Shown here piece by piece: positions 3,358 through 62,545 of a stretch of 64,000 nucleotides of DNA (position 1 is its first letter; each line of letters opens with the position of its first letter). A model generated the notes under the pieces. The model was not told the origin of the DNA, ran no database searches, and was given only the letters and a program-made list of their open reading frames with translations. Location of the stretch: contig NZ_OZ060408.1 in assembly GCF_964059115.1 (NCBI RefSeq), positions 372,001 to 436,000 on the forward strand. The letters run 5' to 3'. The translations under genes were made by a program, and so were the position numbers. This DNA comes from Buchnera aphidicola (Pemphigus immunis). GTDB taxonomy: Bacteria > Pseudomonadota > Gammaproteobacteria > Enterobacterales > Enterobacteriaceae.

Positions 3358-5157
3358 TTAAATATTACGACGACGAAATGAGAAATGATTTTTATTATCT
3401 CGGCGAATTCCTCTGGAATTTACGTAACGTTCATTACGTCTGCGAACATCTAAATGGTCTCCGACACCACGTATAGTTTTTCTATTGGAAACGCTATAAT
3501 GATCACGATTTAATAGTTTTAAATTGATTTGTTTATTAAGAATACGAGTACGAATTAAACGTTGTAATAAATCTTTAGACATACCAAAAGGTAATTCAAC
3601 TGTAGAATAAGAAGAAAATAATTTTATATTACCAATTTGACGACTACTAATATTCCCTTCATTAGCAATAGCACCAACTATATGTCGAACTTCCACACCA
3701 TCATCACGACCAACATCAATCTTATACAAATCAATATTTTTATTATGTCCTCGACGATCACGACGCATTTTATTAATTCTAACATTATCGCAGCGACGAT
3801 CTTCATAAGAATTAAAACTTTCATTTTTTCGTATTATAGAATCAGGTTTAACAATTAAAGATCTTTCTCCTTGAGCTATTTTTAACAAAGCTGCTGCTAA
3901 ATTCTTTAAATCCAATTCACTTTCTGGTTGTATTTTACATAATAAAGCACGATAATCCTTTAAATCTTTACTTTCTAATTGTTTTTCTACTTTTTTTGCA
4001 AATTTTTCAAGACGACGTTGACTTAATAATTCAGTTGTTGGTAAATTTACTTCTGTAATACTTAATTTCATTGTACGTTCTATATTTCTTAATAAACGAC
4101 GTTCTCTATTTTCAACAAATAACAAAGCTCTTCCAGTTCTTCCAGCTCTCCCTGTACGACCAATTCTATGGACGTATGATTCAGAATCCATAGGAATATC
4201 GTAATTTATAACGAAACTAATACGATCTACATCCAAACCACGAGCTGCAACATCCGTCGCTATTAAAATATCTAAACGTCCATTTTTCAATCTTGCTAAT
4301 GTTTGTTCACGTAAAGATTGATTCATATCCCCATTTAATGCCGCACTATTGTAACCATTTCTTTCTAAAGCTTCAGAAACTTCCAAAGTTGCATTTTTAG
4401 TTCTTACAAAAATAATAGTAGCTGAAAAATCTTCTACCTCTAAAAAACGTATCAATGCATCCGTTTTACGACCATACACCATCCAATAACTCTGTTTAAT
4501 ATCAGGACGAGTAGAAATGTTAGATTGAATACGTACTTCTTTAGGTTCTTTCATAAATCTACGTGAAATTCGACGAATAACATCAGGCATTGTGGCAGAA
4601 AATAATGCTGTTTGATGATTCGCTGGAATTTTAGCCATAATAGTTTCCACATCTTCTATAAAACCCATTCTTAACATTTCATCAGCTTCATCCAGAACTA
4701 AACTATGTAAATTAGAAAGATTTAAAGTTCCTCTTTTTAAATGATCTAATAAACGACCAGGTGTTCCAACAACAATTTGAGGTCCTTGACGAAGTGCTCT
4801 TAACTGCAATTCATATCTCTGTCCACCATATAATGCTAAAACTTGTATACCAGATATGTATTTTGAAAAACTTGAAAAAGCATCAGCTACTTGTACAGCT
4901 AATTCTCTAGTTGGAGCTAAAACTAAAATCTGTGGTGCTGTTAAAGATAATTTAATATTATTAAGTAAAGGTAATGAAAAAGCAGCTGTTTTTCCGCTAC
5001 CAGTTTGTGCCATACCTAATACATCTTTACCTAATAATAAATGAGGAATACAAGCTAATTGAATAGGAGAAGGTTTGATATACCCCATTTCATTTAACGC
5101 TTGAATAAGTTGAGAATTTAAACCAAGAGCAAAAAATGTATTTTCAGTGTGAGTCAT
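3358..5157 (-). CDS. deaD: DEAD-box ATP-dependent RNA helicase DeaD/CsdA
   Basis: Cold-shock RNA helicase for ribosome assembly and RNA decay. From the MTHTEN start it has 599 residues (E. coli 629). Visible parts: Q motif (KPSPIQ), Walker A AQTGSGKT at about 50-57, [20 protein letters not shown] at about 156-159, SAT at 187-189, then the second RecA domain with [11 protein letters not shown] and [12 protein letters not shown] DbpA-like RNA-binding domain ([14 protein letters not shown]) follows, ending in a shortened Arg/Asn-rich tail. Two ATGs are possible: 5166 lies only 3 bases from the AAGAGG ribosome-binding site, 5157 lies 12 bases from it. I prefer 5157 from homology (MTH start). nlpI, which lies between pnp and deaD in E. 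coli, is absent. Confidence 0.95.
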
Positions 5158-8131: not shown

Positions 8132-9052
8132 TTATTTAATAATAGATAATAACCTTATTGGTTTTACACAACTTTGATTATAACTTTTACCTAATCCAAT
8201 AAATTTATTTTCTTCCATTACCCGTACTAATTGATTTTTATAATTATGAAAATATTGAATCTCTTGCCCTTTTTTAAAAAAAAACGCAACTTCACCAGAA
8301 ATAGAAATCTTAGGAAATGAAGCAATAGGAGAATCAACAGGCATTAAAAAATCAAATATATTTTTTTTTCCAATTAAGTTATTGTTTTTTGTTAATGAAT
8401 ACAATGTATTTAACGCAATCATTTTGCTAATTGGATAACATCCAACTTGTAAACGACGTAATAACGTTACATGTGCACCACAACCTAATAATTCTCCTAA
8501 ATCATCAATTATGGTACGAATATACGTCCCTTTAGAACATTTTATTTCTAATTCAAAAAAATTTTTTCTTCTATTAATACATTTTAATTGATATATCACA
8601 ACTGTTCTTTTTATACGAGGTATATAAATTCCTTTTCTTGCATACTTATATAATGGTATTCCTTTATATTTTATAGCAGAATATAAAGGAGGTAATTGTT
8701 TAATTTTCCCTTTAAAATGATTTAACGCTTTTTTAAATTCATTATCAGTAAAAGAAATTGAACGAATTTTTGTTATTCTACCGTCAGAATCAAAAGTTGT
8801 TGTCGATTCACCTAATTTAGCAATCACTCTATAATATTTATCAGAATCAATTGAATATTGTGCAAATTTAGTAGCTTCCCCAAAACAAATTGGTAACATA
8901 CCTGTAGCAAGAGGATCTAAAGATCCTGTATGACCAGCTTTTTTAATATCAAATAACTTTTTTATTTTCTGTAAAACATTATTAGAAGACAAACCAGAAG
9001 GTTTATCTACCAATAACACTCCATTCATACAATTAAATTTGGGGAAAAACAT
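8132..9052 (-). CDS. truB: tRNA pseudouridine(55) synthase
   Basis: Makes pseudouridine 55 in the T-loop of tRNAs. It has 306 residues (E. coli 314). The catalytic aspartate is D46 in GHTGSLDPLATGM, and the motifs NGVLLVDKPSG, SDKYYRV and KCSKGTYIRTII are present, the last with the active-site arginine region. The C-terminal PUA-like part is retained. The start codon directly abuts the stop of rbfA, so the two are translationally linked in the nusA-infB-rbfA-truB-rpsO-pnp order known from E. coli. Confidence 0.96.
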   Translation of the reverse strand: MFFPKFNCMNGVLLVDKPSGLSSNNVLQKIKKLFDIKKAGHTGSLDPLATGMLPICFGEATKFAQYSIDSDKYYRVIAKLGESTTTFDSDGRITKIRSISFTDNEFKKALNHFKGKIKQLPPLYSAIKYKGIPLYKYARKGIYIPRIKRTVVIYQLKCINRRKNFFELEIKCSKGTYIRTIIDDLGELLGCGAHVTLLRRLQVGCYPISKMIALNTLYSLTKNNNLIGKKNIFDFLMPVDSPIASFPKISISGEVAFFFKKGQEIQYFHNYKNQLVRVMEENKFIGLGKSYNQSCVKPIRLLSIIK

Positions 9053-24128: not shown

Positions 24129-24692
24129 CTAAAAACCACCTAAAAAATAAAATTAATCTTATACAATCATTTATAAAAATTAAAATAATGTCAAAAAAAT
24201 AGCTTTATATAATTAAAAATAAAAATACTAAAAATTTATAAATTAGATAATATTTATCAATACTGTCAAATAAAAACAAAATACTTTATGTTTGACAAAA
24301 TTAATTCATTACTTTAATATTATTAAATGAAATTTATAAATTATTTTTTTAAAATAATAAAATAAATTAATATACCTTATATAACATTATTCATATAAAA
24401 TATTAGCATTTTTAATAAAATAAAACAATCTTATATCTATGTCTTACGTTAATACAAAATTTATTTTTATTTAAAACAATTTAAAATTAAAATTTTATAT
24501 TTCGTATAATAATGATTTATTTTTTTAATTTAGTAAATAAATATTTAAAAATTTTATAAAAATTATTTTAAATATATTTATATATATAAATATATAGAAA
24601 CCTTTTTTTAAATTTTAATAAAAATATAACATATTACTTAAAACTTATTCTTCTGAAATCAAATTTATTAAATATTTGATAAGTAGCCAATT
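24129..24692. other. Gene-free divergent region rplM/pheA
   Basis: 564 bases between divergent rplM and pheA. I looked for a phenylalanine-rich leader peptide and an attenuator hairpin ahead of pheA, as E. coli has, and found neither. No RNA gene or remnant frame. Promoters must be present but cannot be picked out by eye. Confidence 0.5.
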
Positions 24693-25835
24693 ATGATTTA
24701 TAAAAATCACTTACTTTATTTACGTAATAAAATTAATTTAATTGATCAAAAATTAATAAAAAATTTTTCCAAAAGACAATCAATTATTAAAAAAATAGCA
24801 ATAGAGAAAAATAACACTTCTCAACCTATTAGAGATGTAACACGTGAAAAATTACTATTAAAAGAAGTAACTAATTTAGGAAAAAAATTAAATCTTAATA
24901 CCAATTTTATAAAAAATATATTTACACTTATAATAGAATATTCAGTATCAACTCAAACAAAAATACTAGAAAAAAAAAATAATTTTTTTCCTACCGTGTT
25001 TTCCTTTCTTGGACCTAAAGGTTCTTATTCCCATATCGCAGTTACGAACTGCAAAAAAATTTATAAAAAAATAAAAGAAAAAGCATATTCTTCTTTCACA
25101 GAAATTATTGAATCTGTAGAAAATAAAAAATCTAATTTTGCTATATTACCTATAGAAAACACTTCTTCAGGTCCTATTAATGAAGTTTATGATATATTGA
25201 AAAACACCAGTCTATCTATTGTCGGAGAAACTTATATCCCTATTAATCATTGTTTATTAGCTATACCTAATACCAATTTAAAAAATATAGAAAAAATTTA
25301 TAGTCATGCACAACCTTTCCAGCAATGTAGTAACTTTATGAAAAAATTTCCTAATTGGAAAATAAGACATACATCAAGTTCAGCTAATGCTATTCAATAT
25401 GTAGCCAAAACAAGAAAAAAAAATATTGCTGCTTTAGGTAGCGAAATTGGAGGAAAATATTATAAATTGCAGGTTTTATTAAAAAATATATCTAATCAAA
25501 AAAATAATATAACTCGTTTTCTAATATTAGGTCATAGCCCAATAAACATATTGGAAAAAAAACCTATAAAAACCACATTATTATTAACAATAGGAAAAAA
25601 AATAGAATCTCTACTAGAAATATTATCAATATTAAAAGAACATAATTTAATTATGACAAAATTAGAATCTAGACCGATGTATGATCATCCGTGGGAAGAA
25701 ATATTTTATATAGATATTCTAATGCATAAAAAATCATCTCTTACAGACAGTGCACTAACTAAATTAAATAATATAACTAAATCTTTAAAAATATTAGGAT
25801 ATTACCAAAACATATCTTCAAATATTAATATATAA
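24693..25835 (+). CDS. pheA: Chorismate mutase / prephenate dehydratase (P-protein)
   Basis: Bifunctional enzyme taking chorismate to phenylpyruvate for phenylalanine synthesis. It has 380 residues (E. coli 386). The mutase domain (1-90) keeps R11, R28, K39, D48, R51, E52 and Q88 at the same positions as E. coli. The dehydratase (about 102-282) has FLGPKGSYSH, LPIENTSSGPINEVYD and NITRFLILG. The C-terminal ACT domain has ESRP at 325-328, but the GALV motif of the phenylalanine site is replaced by ESLL at 305-308, which suggests weakened feedback inhibition. No leader-peptide attenuator is seen. Overproduction of phenylalanine for the host would fit. Confidence 0.96.
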   Translation: MIYKNHLLYLRNKINLIDQKLIKNFSKRQSIIKKIAIEKNNTSQPIRDVTREKLLLKEVTNLGKKLNLNTNFIKNIFTLIIEYSVSTQTKILEKKNNFFPTVFSFLGPKGSYSHIAVTNCKKIYKKIKEKAYSSFTEIIESVENKKSNFAILPIENTSSGPINEVYDILKNTSLSIVGETYIPINHCLLAIPNTNLKNIEKIYSHAQPFQQCSNFMKKFPNWKIRHTSSSANAIQYVAKTRKKNIAALGSEIGGKYYKLQVLLKNISNQKNNITRFLILGHSPINILEKKPIKTTLLLTIGKKIESLLEILSILKEHNLIMTKLESRPMYDHPWEEIFYIDILMHKKSSLTDSALTKLNNITKSLKILGYYQNISSNINI

Positions 25836-31444: not shown

Positions 31445-31909
31445 ATGAATAATAAATTTAACATTTTATTACTAAATGGACCCAATCTCAATTTATTAGG
31501 AATCCGAGAACCTAATATTTACGGTGCAAAAACATTATCAGAATTACTAATACAATTAAACGAAAAAGCTAAAAAATTAAATGTAAAATTAGATCATTTA
31601 CAATCTAATGCTGAACATATTTTAGTCGAACGTATTCATCAAGCAAAAGATAATATTGATTATATTATAATTAATCCTGCATCATTTACACATACCAGTA
31701 TATCTTTACGTGACGCTCTTTTATCCGTAAATATACCTTTTATTGAAGTTCATATTTCTAATATTTTTGCAAGAGAACAATTTAGATCTACTTCATGGTT
31801 TTCTGATATTTCTGAAGGAGTTATTTGTGGATTTGGATTAGATGGTTATTTTTGGTCTTTAAAAAGTGCTGTTAAAAAATTAACATATAAACTTTTAACA
31901 AAAAATTAA
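31445..31909 (+). CDS. aroQ: 3-dehydroquinate dehydratase, type II
   Basis: Third step of the shikimate pathway (3-dehydroquinate to 3-dehydroshikimate); dodecameric type II enzyme. It has 154 residues. The catalytic Arg21 and Tyr26 are in [12 protein letters not shown], His103 is in EVHISN, and Arg114 is in REQFRS. E. coli K-12 uses the unrelated type I enzyme AroD, so this gene marks a lineage difference. Together with pheA in this window it supports aromatic amino acid supply. The start ATG is preceded by AAAAGAAAAT, a weak site. Confidence 0.96.
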
Positions 31910-31931
31910 AAAATAAATTATAATATTTCCT

Positions 31932-31962
31932 TTGCACTCTCTCTTCCTTTTAGAAAGTGCAA
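31932..31962. terminator. Hairpin between convergent aroQ and fis
   Basis: TTGCACT (31932-31938) pairs with AGTGCAA (31956-31962); an inner TCT/AGA extends the stem across one mismatch. It lies between convergent aroQ and fis. T-tracts are weak on both sides, so it may act in either direction with modest strength. Confidence 0.6.
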
Positions 31963-31972
31963 TACATATATT

Positions 31973-32269
31973 TTAATTCATACCGTATTTTTTTAATTTT
32001 TTGCGTAATGTACCTCTATTAATCCCCATTATTGATGCTGCTCTAGTTTGATTCCCTCGGGTATACTGCATTACTATATCTAATAATGGTTGTTCTATTT
32101 CAACTAAGACTAATTCATATAAATTAGTTACATCTTTATTATGAAATTGTAAAAAATAATTCTTTAAAGCTTGTTTTACTGACGTTCGTAAAGGTTTTTT
32201 AACAACTTGATTATTGGAATTGATAATAGAAACCGTCAATAAATCAGCAAGTATAGGTTGTTCTAACAT
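31973..32269 (-). CDS. fis: DNA-binding protein Fis
   Basis: Nucleoid-associated DNA-bending protein that activates rRNA and tRNA promoters. It has 98 residues, the E. coli length, with nearly identical C terminus: [39 protein letters not shown] carries the helix-turn-helix (shown in segments: [25 protein letters not shown]). The N-terminal beta-hairpin region is more diverged. dusB, upstream of fis in E. coli, is absent, so fis has its own transcript here. It is one of few DNA-binding regulators left in such genomes. Confidence 0.96.
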
Positions 32270-32438
32270 AGTAAAATTATCTCTTTTGTTAACTTAAATT
32301 AATTTTAAATCAATGAAAATATTCTTAAATTACTATTTAAAATTTACATTTATCGGATAGTAAATTAATAAATGTGATATAATAATCATGTTAAATAAAA
32401 TAAAAATGTTTATTTATTATTTAATTATTTTAATATAA

Positions 32439-43695: not shown

Positions 43696-45653
<1,958 letters not shown>

Positions 45654-45678
45654 TCTTAAAAAAATAAAAGGATAAAAC

Positions 45679-46989
45679 ATGTCTAAAATAATGAAAATTA
45701 TATCTCGAGAAATAATTGATTCCCGAGGTAATCCAACTATCGAAGCTGAAGTACATTTAGAAGGTGGATTTGTTGGTATGGCAGCATCACCTTCTGGAGC
45801 TTCTACCGGATCCAGAGAAGCATTAGAACTACGCGATAATGATAAATCAAGATTTTTAGGAAAAGGAGTAACTAAAGCTACTGCACTAATAAATGGTCCT
45901 ATATCTTCTGCAATTTATAAAAAAGATGCTAGAGATCAAGAAAACATAGATAGTATTATGATTAATTTAGATGGTACTAAAAATAAATCTAATTTAGGAG
46001 CTAATTCTATTTTAGCAGTATCTTTGGCAACAGCCAAAGCAGCTGCAGCAGCTAAAGGTATGCCTTTATACCAACATATTGCAGATATTAACGGAACATC
46101 TGGAATATTTTCTATGCCTCTTCCTATGGTTAACATAATTAATGGAGGAAAACATGCTAATAATAATTTAGACATCCAAGAATTTATGATACAACCAATT
46201 AGAGCTAAAAATATAAAGGAAGCTATTCGTATATCATCTGAAATATTCCATATATTAGCGAAAATATTAAAAGAAAAAGGTATGAATACAGCTGTTGGAG
46301 ATGAAGGAGGATATGCTCCAGAATTATCTTCCAATGAATCAGCATTAAAAATAATTAAAGAAGCTGTTGAAAAATCTGGATATATATTAGGCAAAGATAT
46401 TACTTTAGCTATCGATTGTGCAGCATCGGAATTTTATAATTCTTATACCAAAAAATATAGATTAAAAAATGAAAAAAAACTTTTTAATTCCCACGAATTT
46501 ACTAACTATTTATATAATTTATCCAAAAAATATCCAATTTCTTCAATTGAAGACGGACAAGATGAATCAGATTGGGAAGGTTTTTTTCATCAAACAAAAA
46601 AACTAGGTAATAAAATACAAATAGTAGGTGATGATTTATTTGTAACTAATACTGATATTTTATATCAAGGTATAAAAAAAGGTATAGCCAATTCTATTTT
46701 AATAAAATTAAATCAAATTGGGTCCCTTACAGAAACTCTTGCCGCAATAAAAATGGCAAAAAAAGCAAATTATACCGTAATTATTTCACATAGATCAGGA
46801 GAAACTGAAGATGCTTCTATTGCGGATTTAGCAGTAGGTACAGCATCTGGACAAATTAAAACAGGTTCTGTCAGTCGTTCCGAAAGAACAGCAAAATACA
46901 ATCAACTAATTAGGATAGAAGAAACATTGGGAAATGAATTTGCACCATTTAATGGTATAAAAGAAATAAAAAATTATAAATTGATTTAA
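45679..46989 (+). CDS. eno: Enolase
   Basis: Interconverts 2-phosphoglycerate and PEP; in E. coli also part of the RNA degradosome. It has 436 residues (E. coli 432). Motifs: [46 protein letters not shown], the acid-base pair Glu/Lys in VGDEGGYAP and [13 protein letters not shown], and [16 protein letters not shown] precedes the ATG. It follows pyrG as in E. coli and is closed by a strong hairpin. PEP made here feeds the shikimate pathway, and hence pheA and aroQ products. Confidence 0.98.
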
Positions 46990-57040: not shown

Positions 57041-59602
57041 CTATACAATACTTTTTAAATAATATATGATTGCTAAAGCCTGACGTGGAGAAATTGTATC
57101 AGGATCTACCACATCTATAAAATGTAAAATAGAATTTTTTGATGAATCTTTAAAAAATTTTTTTTTTATTTTATTTATAAAATGATTATCATCATAATTA
57201 TTGGATAAATCTAATAATTCTTTTAATTTTATACTTGCTAAATCGGTAACAACTTTTGGTAAACCAGCCAAAGAAGCCACTGCTAATCCATAACTATTTC
57301 TTGTTGCTCCATCTTTAATAACATGTGTAAAAGAAACACCACCTTCATATTCGATAACACCACAATGAACATTTTTAATTTCCTTAAATTTTTTTTCTAA
57401 ATCAGTTAATTCAAAATAATGAGTAGAAAATAAAGTAATAGATTTAATAGATGTAATGAAATATTCAGCACATGCTAATGCTAAAGACAAACCATCATAA
57501 GTAGAAGTTCCTCTACCAATTTCATCAATTAAAACTAAACTATTACAACTAGCATTATGTAAAATACTTGCTATTTCAGTCATTTCCATCATAAAAGTGG
57601 ATTGACCCATGGATAAATTGTCAGCTGATCCAACTCTTATAAAAATTTTATCAAACATACCTATAACTGCTTTTTTAGCAGGAACATAACTGCCTATCCA
57701 CGTCATAATAACAATTAATGCTATTTGTCTCATATAAGTACTTTTCCCACCCATATTACTACCTGTTATAATCATCATTCTATTATATTCAGATAAAAAT
57801 ACCGAATTAGGCACGAAAGGAGTCTTTATTACTGATTCGATAACAGGATGACGACTATCAGTTAAAGAAATTACTGATTTTTTTTCTACTTTTGGACGTG
57901 TATAATTCATAGTAATAGAACGTTCTGCTAAATTAGTCAATACATCTATTTCTGCTAATGCTTGACTGCTAATTTGTAATTCATCCAAGTGAGAAAATAA
58001 AACATCAAAAATTTCTTCATATAATTTTTTTTCTAATTCTATACTTTTACTTGCAGCAAAAATAATATTTTTTTCATAATCTTTTAACTCCTTTATAATA
58101 TACCGTTCACAACTTTTTAACGTTTGACATTTTTTATAAGAATTAGGTACTAAATGACTATATCTCTTACTAATTTGAATGTAATAACCGATAATTTTAT
58201 TATGTCTAATTTTTAATGATTCTATTTTTAAAATACGTCTCGTTTTTATTTCAAAATTTTTAAGATACTGTTGTGCATCATTATTAATTAATCTCAATTT
58301 ATCCAATTCAACATTATAACCATCCGCTATTACTCCACCTTCTCGAATTGATTTAGCAGGAGATTTAGATATAGCTCTTTCTAACAAACTAGATAAATTT
58401 AAAAAATTTCCAATTGAATTACATAAATTTTGAATATGTTCTACTTTAATATCTATTAGTATTTTTTTTATTATAGGTAATTTTAAAAAAGTTTCCTTGA
58501 TAGAAATTAAATCTTTAGGAGACGCTGTACGCAAAGCAATACGAGAAGAAATACGTTCTAAATCACTTATACGATACAAAACATTTTGTAATACAGGAAA
58601 AACTTTTTGGAAACCTTGTATGCTATTTTGTCTATCATTAACAATTTTAATATCGCGTACAGGAGAACTTAACCAACGCTTTAACATTCTACTTCCCATA
58701 GATGTAGATGTGCGATCTAAAATACAACATAAAGTATTTTTATATCCTCCCGAAATATTTTTAATTATTTCTAAATTTTTACGAGTAGTTGAATTTAAGA
58801 TGATATTATCTTCTATATTATGCATTTTTATAGATTTTATATGAGGTAATAAAGAATTCTGTGTATTTTTTACATATTGAAATAAACAACCAGCAGCACA
58901 TAAAGCAACATCTGCTCCTTCCACACCAAAACCATTTAAACTATTTGTTCCAAATTGTAAATTTAATTGACGATAAGCAGTATCTAGTTTAAATTCCCAT
59001 AAAGAACGTTTACGTAGTCCATAATTATGTTTTATTAAATCATAATAAAAAAAACCTTCAGGATATAATAATTCTTTTGGATTAGTTCGTTGTAACTCAG
59101 ATAATAAATCTTCTGTACATGTAAATTCTGAAATAACAAATTCACCTGAACAAATATTTAAAATAGCATAACCAATAATATTCCTTTTAAAAAAAACAGA
59201 CGCTAATAAATTATCTTGATGATCTTGCAAAAAAAAATCATCTGTCACTGTTCCAGGAGTAACAATTCTAACTACTTTACGTAATAATAATTTTTTTCCT
59301 GAATTAGGTTCCTCCATTTGTTCACAAATTGCAACTGATTCTCTTAATTTCATTAATTTTAATAAATAAATATCTACTGAATTACAAGGTATTCCAGACA
59401 TAGGTACTTCTTTTCCTGCTGAATAACCCTTTTTCGTTAAAGTAATATTTAATAAATTAGATATTTTTTTAGCATCTTCATAAAATAATTCATAAAAATC
59501 ACCCATCCTATAAAACAATAACATATCTGGATAATTAGATTTTAATTTAAGATACTGTTTTATCATTGGTGTATGATCATTTTTTTTATTTTCTTTATTC
59601 AT
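57041..59602 (-). CDS. mutS: DNA mismatch repair protein MutS
   Basis: Recognises mismatches and starts repair with MutL. It has 853 residues, as in E. coli. The mismatch-wedge motif Phe36-Tyr37-Glu38 is kept in [11 protein letters not shown]; the C-terminal ABC ATPase has [13 protein letters not shown] (Walker A, one Pro to Ser change), [23 protein letters not shown] and FSTHYFELT. The last segment [18 protein letters not shown] matches the helix-turn-helix end of E. coli MutS. It is divergent from polA, whose proofreading site is lost, so mismatch repair may matter more here. Confidence 0.97.
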
Positions 59603-60008
59603 ACATAATCTCTATTTTTTTATTAATAAATCAAATTTATTTAAATCTAACCAATTTTTATAAATAATAAATATAAATTTTTAATAATCACTATTATCAT
59701 AAAAATTAATTTTTTTATTAAATAAAATAAATTGTCTTATTATTAAAATAATATATTTTATTAGTATATGTTTTGATAAATAATATTCATTATGTTATAA
59801 TAAATATTATTTATATATAAAAAATAACTTATTCATCATTTAATACACATTAAAATTTTTAATAAATTAAAAAAATCATGAATTCTAAAAATAAAAAAAA
59901 ATACTAATTGTAGATGGAACATCTTATTTATATCGTGCTTATTATACTTTTCCATATTGGATAAATAAATACGGAGAACCTTCCGGAGCAATATATGGAG
60001 TAATAAAT

Positions 60009-60782
60009 ATGTTACGTAAAATAATACTGAAATATCAAGATAATCAAATAATTGTAGTATTTGACTCACCTAATAAAACCTTTCGTCATGCTATTTTTAA
60101 AAAATATAAAAAAAATAGACCTGCTATGCCTGAAGATTTAAAAAAACAAATTCCATTTTTATATAAGATAATAAAATTAATTGGAATACCTTTAATCCTT
60201 GTTCCTTCAGTAGAAGCAGATGATATCATAGGAACATTATCGTATCGTGCTGAAAAAATTGGATTAACTATTTTAATTAGCAGCAATGATAAAGATATGT
60301 TGCAATTAGTAACTGAAAAAATCAATATTATTAATACTACATATGACGTTATAATTGGACCTAAAGAAATTAAAAAAAAATATGGAATAACACCAAAACT
60401 TATGATTGATCTATTAGCATTAATGGGAGATGTTGTCGATAACATTCCTGGTATACCAGGAATAGGAGAAAAAACAGCATTAATGCTAATCAAACATTTT
60501 GGATGTCTTGAAAAAATATATGAAGAAATAGAAAATATAAAAATATTACCAATACATGGAGCTAAAAATATATCTATAAAAATAAAAAAAAATAAAGAAA
60601 TTGCTTTTCTTTCTAAAAAATTATCGACAATTAAATTAGATATACCACTTGATGTTGATTTAGAGAATTTAAAAACATCAAAATTAAAAAAACAAAAATT
60701 ATTACATTTTTTTAATCACTACAATTTTAAAAAATGGAAAAAACAGGTAGAAAATGATTCATGGTTAACAACAAAAAAATAA
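60009..60782 (+). CDS. polA: 5'-3' exonuclease portion of DNA polymerase I
   Basis: Open frame of 257 residues from the first in-frame ATG, but homology extends 39 codons upstream to 59892 with no ATG, GTG or TTG there, so this ATG is not the true start. Metal ligands are kept: VFDSPNKTFR, EADDIIGTL, SNDKDMLQLV and GDVVDNIPGIPGIGEKTA. The first aspartate (VDGTSYLYRAY) is only in the upstream part. A protein from 60009 would lack it and probably be inactive. Removes RNA primers and flaps. Some Buchnera keep only a stand-alone version of this domain. Confidence 0.85.
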   Translation: MLRKIILKYQDNQIIVVFDSPNKTFRHAIFKKYKKNRPAMPEDLKKQIPFLYKIIKLIGIPLILVPSVEADDIIGTLSYRAEKIGLTILISSNDKDMLQLVTEKINIINTTYDVIIGPKEIKKKYGITPKLMIDLLALMGDVVDNIPGIPGIGEKTALMLIKHFGCLEKIYEEIENIKILPIHGAKNISIKIKKNKEIAFLSKKLSTIKLDIPLDVDLENLKTSKLKKQKLLHFFNHYNFKKWKKQVENDSWLTTKK

Positions 60783-62545
60783 AATTATGTCCTCATGTTA
60801 TACCAAATATAGAATATATTTTAATTTTAAAAAAAGAAAAATTTGAAAAAATGTTAAAAAAAATAGAAAAATTTAATTTTTTTTCTTTTATAATTCAAAC
60901 AAAATTATTCAATATAAATCACGCTTACATTACTGGATTCTCTTTTTCAATTACCATTAATCAAATATTTTATATACCTATAATTAATAATGACTTTTTT
61001 TCATTAAAAATACATGATCAATACGATATTTTAGTACAATTAAAAATTTTATTTGAAAACAAAAACATACTAAAAATAGGTTACAATATAAAAAAAAATT
61101 ATCATTTTTTTAAAAAATACAATATTACACTATCCGGTAACAAATTCGATACCATGATCGCATCACACATGCTAAAAAATATATATAAAAATAAAGAAAT
61201 ATTAGAAGATTTAGAAAAAACATGGATAGAAAAAAATGAAATTAATAAAAACAATATTGATATAAAAAAATATATAGATCTAAAATCCCACATAAATTTA
61301 AAATTATATGAAGAAATATTAGTATATTTAGAAAAAGAAAAAAAAATAAAAAAAATATTAGAAAATATAGAAATACCATTAATAGAAATAATAGCTAATA
61401 TTGAAAGAAATGGTGTATTGATAAATATTAAAAAATTAAAAAAACAATCAAAAGAAATTAATATTAAACTATCAAATTTACAACAAGATGCTTATCAATT
61501 AACAGGATTATCTTTTAATATCTTATCTAGTACACAATCAAGAAAAATGTTACTACAAATAAAAGAAAATAAAAATAATATTAAATCCAATATACAAAAA
61601 AAAGATATTCTTCTTAATATAATAAAAAATTACCGCAGTTTATACAAATTAAAATCAACTTATCTTGATCAATTACCTAAAAAAATAAACAAAAAAACAG
61701 GTAAAATACATACATGTTATTATCAAACAAATACTTTAACAGGTCGTTTATCGTCAAAAAATCCTAATTTACAAAATATTCCATCTAAAACCAAAGAAGG
61801 TTACAATATTCGTAAAGCATTTATAGCTAAACAAAATTTTTTCATAGTTTCTGCCGATTATTCTCAAATTGAATTAAGAATTTTAGCACACTTATCACAA
61901 GATAAAAAATTAATTAAAATATTTCTTAATAACTATGACTTACATAAAATAACAGCATCTGAAATATTTAATGTTCCTATAGCTAACATCACAAATGAAC
62001 AAAGACAACTTGCAAAAATCATTAATTTTAGTTTAATTTACGGTATAAGCCCTTTTAGTCTATCTAACAGATTAAAAATAAATATATTACAAGCTAAAGA
62101 ATACATAAAAACGTATTTTCAACGTTATAAAGACGTCCGTAAATACTTGCAAAATACTTATCAATTTGCATTGGAAAAAGGATACGTATTAACATTTTAT
62201 GGAAGAAAAATATTTATTCCTAATATTAATTCAAAAAATTTTTTAATCCGTAAATCAGCAGAAAGGACCGCCATCAACGCTCCTATTCAAGGTACCGTAT
62301 CAGACATAATAAAATTAGCCATGATAAAAATATATAATTGTTTTAAAAAAAAATATCATTTAGACGCAAAAATGATAATGCAAGTACATGATGAATTAGT
62401 CTTTGAAATAAAAAAAGAAAAAATAAAGAATATTTGTAAAGATATACGTCATATAATGGAATATAATACAAAATTAGATGTACCTATATGTATAAATATT
62501 AAAATAGGAAATAACTGGAACGAAAACATTAAACATATCCAATAA
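60761..62545 (+). CDS. polA: Klenow-like portion of DNA polymerase I, proofreading site lost
   Basis: Open frame of 594 residues overlapping the exonuclease frame by 22 bases. Polymerase motifs are intact: TLTGRLSSKNPNLQNIP, motif A SADYSQIELRILAHLS, O-helix RQLAKIINFSLIYGIS (Arg, Lys, Phe, Tyr kept), motif C MQVHDELVFEI. The 3'-5' exonuclease domain is still present as sequence, but E. coli FAFDTETDSLD corresponds to FSFIIQTKLFN and LKYDRG to IKKNYH, so at least three of the four catalytic acids are gone. Could be made by slippage or by re-initiation at 60761 (AGG upstream). Confidence 0.88.
   Translation: MVNNKKIKLCPHVIPNIEYILILKKEKFEKMLKKIEKFNFFSFIIQTKLFNINHAYITGFSFSITINQIFYIPIINNDFFSLKIHDQYDILVQLKILFENKNILKIGYNIKKNYHFFKKYNITLSGNKFDTMIASHMLKNIYKNKEILEDLEKTWIEKNEINKNNIDIKKYIDLKSHINLKLYEEILVYLEKEKKIKKILENIEIPLIEIIANIERNGVLINIKKLKKQSKEINIKLSNLQQDAYQLTGLSFNILSSTQSRKMLLQIKENKNNIKSNIQKKDILLNIIKNYRSLYKLKSTYLDQLPKKINKKTGKIHTCYYQTNTLTGRLSSKNPNLQNIPSKTKEGYNIRKAFIAKQNFFIVSADYSQIELRILAHLSQDKKLIKIFLNNYDLHKITASEIFNVPIANITNEQRQLAKIINFSLIYGISPFSLSNRLKINILQAKEYIKTYFQRYKDVRKYLQNTYQFALEKGYVLTFYGRKIFIPNINSKNFLIRKSAERTAINAPIQGTVSDIIKLAMIKIYNCFKKKYHLDAKMIMQVHDELVFEIKKEKIKNICKDIRHIMEYNTKLDVPICINIKIGNNWNENIKHIQ

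Follow-up and report, generated by a model that had tools for sequence, protein, structure and literature searches.

Frameshifts in poly(A) tracts of Buchnera and Blochmannia genes are reportedly rescued by transcriptional slippage, an account associated with Tamas et al. 2008 and Wernegreen et al. 2010. In the retrieved passages of the literature on these symbionts, such frameshifts are described as being kept by selection and are thought to be rescued by slippage, the replication genes dnaX and dnaG being among those affected (PMC3017870, PMC5009743, PMC4389277). In a passage of PMC5009743, the share of transcripts corrected is 12–50% for symbiont genes broken at poly(A). In the retrieved part of PMC5574713, 151 of 157 transcription insertions in Buchnera fall in homopolymers, deletions doing so less (16 of 57 as printed), and no restored frame was found; a passage of PMC3890641 states that the curators of Buchnera Mp merged genes across poly(A) indels. 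The polA gene described here resembles the cases in those passages (including Williams and Wernegreen 2010, PMC3017870) in that a single-base error in an A-run interrupts an otherwise conserved gene, the error at the first of its two sites is kept across species, and the bacterial group is the same. Unlike in those cases, the run is only a few codons past the start, the error is in different phases in different species, and the case is known here from DNA.

In this study, we analysed polA in a window, by which we mean the whole 64,000-nucleotide stretch of DNA under analysis, that sits in a 607-kb genome of four contigs. This genome is Buchnera-type, and its polymerase open reading frame shares 88% identity with the one from the Buchnera aphidicola of Pemphigus obesinymphae (P0002). 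The genus comparison comprised four genomes, the window genome (G000) and its relatives G001, G002 and G003; the polymerase of G001 differs little from the Formosaphis micheliae entry P0007. All four have polA flanked on one side by mutS and on the other by an engB-like GTPase and typA, as named from their sequences. For the nuclease, 17 proteins were picked for alignment from at least 120 relatives, P0121, P0122 and P0126 belonging to genomes compared here and P0123–P0125, P0128 and P0129 being protein sequences alone. The dN and dS quoted are NG86 values, and the frameshift surveys took in frames of at least 60 aa with tblastn matches. The best 80 of 580 relatives from a contig scan (36–44% identity) and 124 plasmid records matched by tblastn, every one below 60% identity, were set aside.

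An earlier, sequence-only reading of this DNA held that polA is broken twice at A-runs, that one extra A repairs each break, and that selection maintains both halves. The layout of the frames agrees with it. The A9 run begins five codons into the frame of ATG 59878 and leaves that start out of the nuclease frame, so that its leader reaches a TAA (59905–59907) after eight further codons; one added A would join the two frames. At the A7 run the frame changes from nuclease to polymerase, the Pfam domains 5_3_exonuc_N and 5_3_exonuc falling on the exonuclease frame, which ends at TAA 60780–60782, and DNA_pol_A on the next; here also one added A would join the frames. A codon listing confirmed that the exonuclease frame has no ATG, GTG or TTG from the stop at 59892 to 60009, a stretch that includes the codon at 59913–59915, which we take to be that of the first catalytic Asp of the nuclease. 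Invariant acidic positions in the 17 aligned proteins include D66, E116, D118, D119, D141, D143, D188 and D191 (P0127 numbering). The features of the locus are as follows.

59878–59907, plus strand: conserved start and leader, ATG plus eight codons and then TAA (alignment with G002 and G003)
59893–59901, plus strand: A9 run, the proposed slippage site (site 1); a run of equal length in G002 and G003, absent from G001
59895–60782, plus strand: 5'-3' exonuclease frame of polA, stop to stop (open reading frame list, Pfam)
59902–60008, plus strand: stretch of the nuclease frame without ATG, GTG or TTG, under purifying selection (codon listing, selection test)
59907–59909, plus strand: ATT codon, a rival start, where the gene model P0121 (MVDG...) begins
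60009–60011, plus strand: first in-frame ATG of the nuclease, 3' of the catalytic Asp
60761–60782, plus strand: 22-nt overlap of nuclease end and polymerase start, with ATGGTT at the same place in all four genomes
60761–62545, plus strand: separate polymerase open reading frame, 594 aa, DNA_pol_A (open reading frame list, alignment, Pfam)
60773–60779, plus strand: A7 run at the junction (site 2), at this place in none of the three relatives and apparently not needed for expression

Comparison within the genus revealed two things that the sequence-only reading could not show, namely that the defect at site 1 is common to G002 and G003 and that the A7 run is found in none of the relatives. An out-of-frame A9 stands behind a conserved start in three of the four genomes (G000, G002 and G003), each start consisting of ATGAAT, A or T, CT, a short A-run, T and nine A's, and G001 has an in-frame nuclease ATG without an A9 at the start. 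Both G000 and G002 are short by one A. G003 is in the opposite phase, as it lacks one of the A's before the run, and its frames would be joined by removing one A or adding two. We rejected conservation of the A9 alone as evidence, because at 19 of the 40 places with a coding A9/T9 run in the window G003 has a run of equal or greater length. Over the leader, from the ATG through the A9, 27 of 28 columns are identical in G002 and 25 of 28 in G003, against only 50/60 and 32/60 for the 60 columns 5' of the ATG. This conservation is about that of the coding sequence after the leader, and was measured by identity only, nine codons being too short for a selection test. An AAGGA lies five bases 5' of the leader ATG in G003; no clear Shine-Dalgarno sequence was seen at the leader starts of G000 and G002.

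The 36 codons from the A9 to the first ATG were tested for selection in three genome pairs, which are not independent. The pairs show 3, 7 and 7 amino-acid changes, whereas random placement of the same substitutions gave means of 6.65, 11.84 and 12.48 (P 0.0027, 0.0039 and 0.0016, respectively). Because there are fewer protein changes than chance placement allows, this stretch is very probably translated. Between G000 and G002 its dN is 0.043 and its dS 0.258, close to the 0.040 and 0.258 of the neighbouring mutS; the polymerase has 0.057 and 0.256. The test supports translation of the stretch but cannot separate slippage from a start at ATT. Of the 17 nuclease proteins aligned, eight (P0121–P0126, P0128 and P0129) begin at or past the first catalytic Asp, presumably where gene callers met no ATG, and the N-terminus is complete in the remaining nine. 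AlphaFold modelling of one intact relative, P0127 (mean pLDDT 90.9), places beta-strand 1 at residues 11–16.

Slippage-rescued poly(A) genes can be recognized by an A/T-run of at least about nine, by conservation of the error across species together with the run, and by a gene that is otherwise intact under purifying selection. Site 1 has nine A's, shares its error among three of the four genomes of the genus, and is followed, 3' of the A9, by a frame under purifying selection with its conserved residues kept; it thus appears to be a previously undescribed case of the published poly(A) frameshift kind. We consider it rather probable that the nuclease is made via slippage on the A9 and, after an old fission, the polymerase from its own ATG. 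Translation of the nuclease would start at ATG 59878, from which the genomic frame dead-ends, and slippage on the A9, most likely by an RNA polymerase adding an A, would yield a fraction of in-frame messages. Such a partial supply would be expected to lower the dose of the nuclease. The slippage reading is favoured because the leader and run are conserved, a Shine-Dalgarno sequence precedes the ATG in G003, beta-strand 1 would need the residues upstream of ATT, and both phases are accounted for. G003 would be the less efficient case, because transcription insertions in Buchnera, more than deletions, fall in homopolymers in the data given in PMC5574713. The earlier proposal of slippage rescue thus stands at site 1 as the likeliest reading, with the ATT start keeping a smaller share of probability.

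That ATT start is the main and a serious rival to slippage on the A9, although we consider it unlikely overall. The nuclease would begin at ATT 59907, or at a neighbouring ATA, as an infC-like rare start, and the ATG leader with its A9 would be an untranslated leader or a short upstream open reading frame whose TAA overlaps the ATT. G000, G002 and G003 share the position of this codon, the database models P0121 and P0126 begin MVDG and P0122 begins MDG, and a start there would make the phase switch of G003 neutral. In addition, a more distant relative (G010), in which no ATG stands near the start of the nuclease, carries AAAAGGA eight bases 5' of an ATT, by which ATT starts in this group may be real, and manual curation of Buchnera Mp occasionally used a rare ATT start, according to a passage of PMC3890641. 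However, no Shine-Dalgarno sequence was seen before the ATT in G000, G002 or G003, the AAGGA of G003 being placed before the ATG instead, and conservation of the leader about equals that of the coding sequence behind it. Judged by the P0127 model, the ATT product would also lose three residues, half of beta-strand 1.

Ribosomal -1 frameshifting, which would leave transcripts unaltered and at the A9 would yield a protein identical to that from slippage, has a small probability in our estimate. The heptamer A AAA AAA is present in the zero frame of both the A9 and, possibly as a second site, the A7, and the -1 direction fits G000 and G002, as well as G013 and G021 from the other genera considered below; yet G003 requires the opposite shift and the A7 is not conserved. 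Heterogeneous transcripts would supply the shift of G003 more naturally than one-directional ribosomal shifting, and slippage by RNA polymerase is the more likely process at the A9. Comparison with dnaX-type frameshifting or slippage shows the same A-run and -1 direction; unlike that system, there is no evidence here for two useful products.

It is very improbable that the nuclease is dying, with ATG 60009 alone in use and a product without the catalytic Asp. Three metagenome gene models (P0123–P0125) do begin at the Met equivalent to 60009, but purifying selection acts 5' of that codon in the three genome pairs, and the dN/dS of the stretch resembles that of mutS.

Slippage is not required at site 2. 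Joining of nuclease and polymerase there had been taken to need a second, tandem slip, but two slips are not needed, because a conserved ATG belonging to the polymerase lies within the end of the nuclease frame. The two are separate open reading frames in all four genomes of the genus, with overlaps of 22 nt in G000, 22 nt in G002, 19 nt in G003 and 22 nt in G001, and in each the polymerase ATG straddles the Trp codon of a Ser/Ala-Trp-Leu motif (Ser-Trp-Leu in the window). They thus form an overlapping gene pair in which the second gene has its own conserved start. The longest A-run where both frames are open measures 7 in G000, 5 in G002, 2 in G003 and 8 in G001, the A8 of G001 lying about 20 nt 5' of the conserved polymerase ATG, where both frames are still open. 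Site 2 therefore has no A/T-run of about nine or more conserved with the error, and its A7 is incidental. Separate nuclease and polymerase proteins, P0124/P0005 and P0125/P0004, also come from two metagenome contigs of 2735 and 4855 bases, and from the ends of the proteins these pairs appear to share the same overlap.

Because the split is found in all four genomes, the ATGGTT is conserved, and G002 and G003 keep the polymerase without a long A-run, site 2 is best read as the product of an ancient fission within the interdomain linker, which left two overlapping genes. The polymerase would be translated from its own ATG at 60761, with initiation probably coupled to translation of the nuclease. 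Slippage joining the frames could in principle be feasible in G000 and G001, and not plausibly in G002 and G003, and a minor fused product could arise by slippage on the A7 in the window genome. A stand-alone 5' nuclease is also what the exonuclease-only PolA of other Buchnera amounts to; here, by contrast, the polymerase is retained as an overlapping neighbour gene. The Klenow fragment and the nuclease function apart, and the break between domains is common to those separately made fragments and to the present gene pair.

The window polymerase belongs to the family A DNA polymerases, as it has DNA_pol_A in Pfam and motifs A, B and C, which are kept throughout P0001–P0007, the window protein included. 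Proofreading residues are replaced, FDLETD of P0034 being FIIQTK in the window polymerase and KYD being KKN. Most acidic proofreading residues are also gone in other aligned Buchnera relatives.

The background rate of frame breaks was surveyed in the same genomes. Internal frame changes in G003 are absent from all 49 window genes that have a relative there, despite the 125 A/T runs of at least 8 that lie in those coding frames, and so the polA breaks exceed chance expectation. Nor does any G003 frame show an internal frame change in the window. One window frame flagged against G003 is antisense to kept genes and was not counted, as were three short G001 frames (64–103 aa) flagged against the window, which are antisense or short. 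A start-codon survey against G003 flagged nine of 49 window genes, in eight of which the start codon is 13–18 codons into the aligned part, which we attribute to alignments extending slightly 5' of a normal start; in polA it is 33 codons in. Elsewhere there were 3/43 start-codon flags against G001, 2/18 in G002, 5/51 in G003 and 7/50 in G001. Homopolymers are the usual site of indel errors, but assembly error is scarcely credible as the source of the polA breaks, given that three assemblies share the out-of-frame A9, one of them in the opposite phase, that the G003 frames show no shift in the window, and that site 2 is split in all four genomes, two of which lack a long run.

Beyond the genus, polA breaks recur in other Buchnera-like genera. 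Ten of the 16 genomes of genus g11 have fused polA frames of 891–933 aa. In G066 and G068 an out-of-frame poly(A) of the linker, A19 and A11 respectively, splits the gene, and G067 is fused with an in-frame A15; in G064 polA is broken across a longer stretch, and in G013 it is split and then broken again. An in-frame ATG lies 8–17 codons before the first Asp in 15 of the 16; in G013 the sole in-frame ATG is directly before that Asp, an upstream ATG being followed by an out-of-frame A12. In genus g19, the nuclease start of G021 is intact and an A10 run breaks the nuclease. Part of polA is the only gene with an internal frame change among the 38 tested in G013 and among the 42 tested in G021. 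The recurrence of polA breaks at poly(A) is real in these samples, and rests on few independent events, which we estimate at four to six. The linker tract of G066 (L169) and G068 (L171) lies near 1335–1360, L170 being the corresponding sequence of G067, and the polymerases there are still 80–90% identical. The second break in the polymerase frame of G013 (L180, near 1890–1960) is near an A12 run. No polymerase frame of at least 60 aa was found beside the nuclease in two further g11 genomes, G069 (L172) and G074 (L177), and in g19 the genome of G060 (L179) has the nuclease and no polymerase match anywhere.

Possibly, although we regard this joint reading as doubtful, Buchnera polA contains a pair of Lys-rich slippery spots, one after the start codon and one in the linker, that break repeatedly at poly(A) in separate lineages, the Pemphigus-type start being blind to phase and slippage in the linker initiating the split. 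If so, the A9 would disconnect the ATG from the frame, the leader could drift to any phase, and slippage would keep the nuclease at a low dose. On the favoured reading of site 1, the start of this DNA-repair gene has plausibly relied on errors in copying from before the divergence of three symbiont species. Linker slippage would likewise be a route to the split of polA and then to polymerase loss in several lineages, potentially from a fused gene with a poly(A) linker through a frameshifted linker and overlapping genes to a lost polymerase. Such a stepwise route suggests how shrinking genomes dismantle a two-domain enzyme. The new points are the recurrence in polA and the switching of phase, poly(A) rescue itself being already known, as the sequence-only reading had said of Buchnera and Blochmannia in agreement with the literature. 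Among the best-ranked matches in the literature on Buchnera polA and slippage, judged by titles and the starts of abstracts, the present finding does not appear, and the recurrence and phase switch are absent from the titles, abstract starts and passages of that literature.

Some further observations concern individual relatives. In G001, three of 43 genes are broken (truB, pheA and mutS) though the nuclease start is intact. Its mutS (L133–L136; relative of window 57044–59611) has three frame changes near A/T runs of 7–9, its pheA for phenylalanine synthesis (relative of 24687–25832) has a frame change near an A11, and its truB (relative of 8135–9052) has two frame changes without a long run. 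The G001 flags include two other frames, at 31719–32435 and 45184–46128 on the minus strand of the joined L133–L136, whose first ATG, GTG or TTG lies well inside the aligned part and which may be further 5' breaks. On L121 of G010, minus strand near 4265, an ATT that follows AAAAGGA by eight bases and is itself followed by an A9 is likely to be a natural ATT start.
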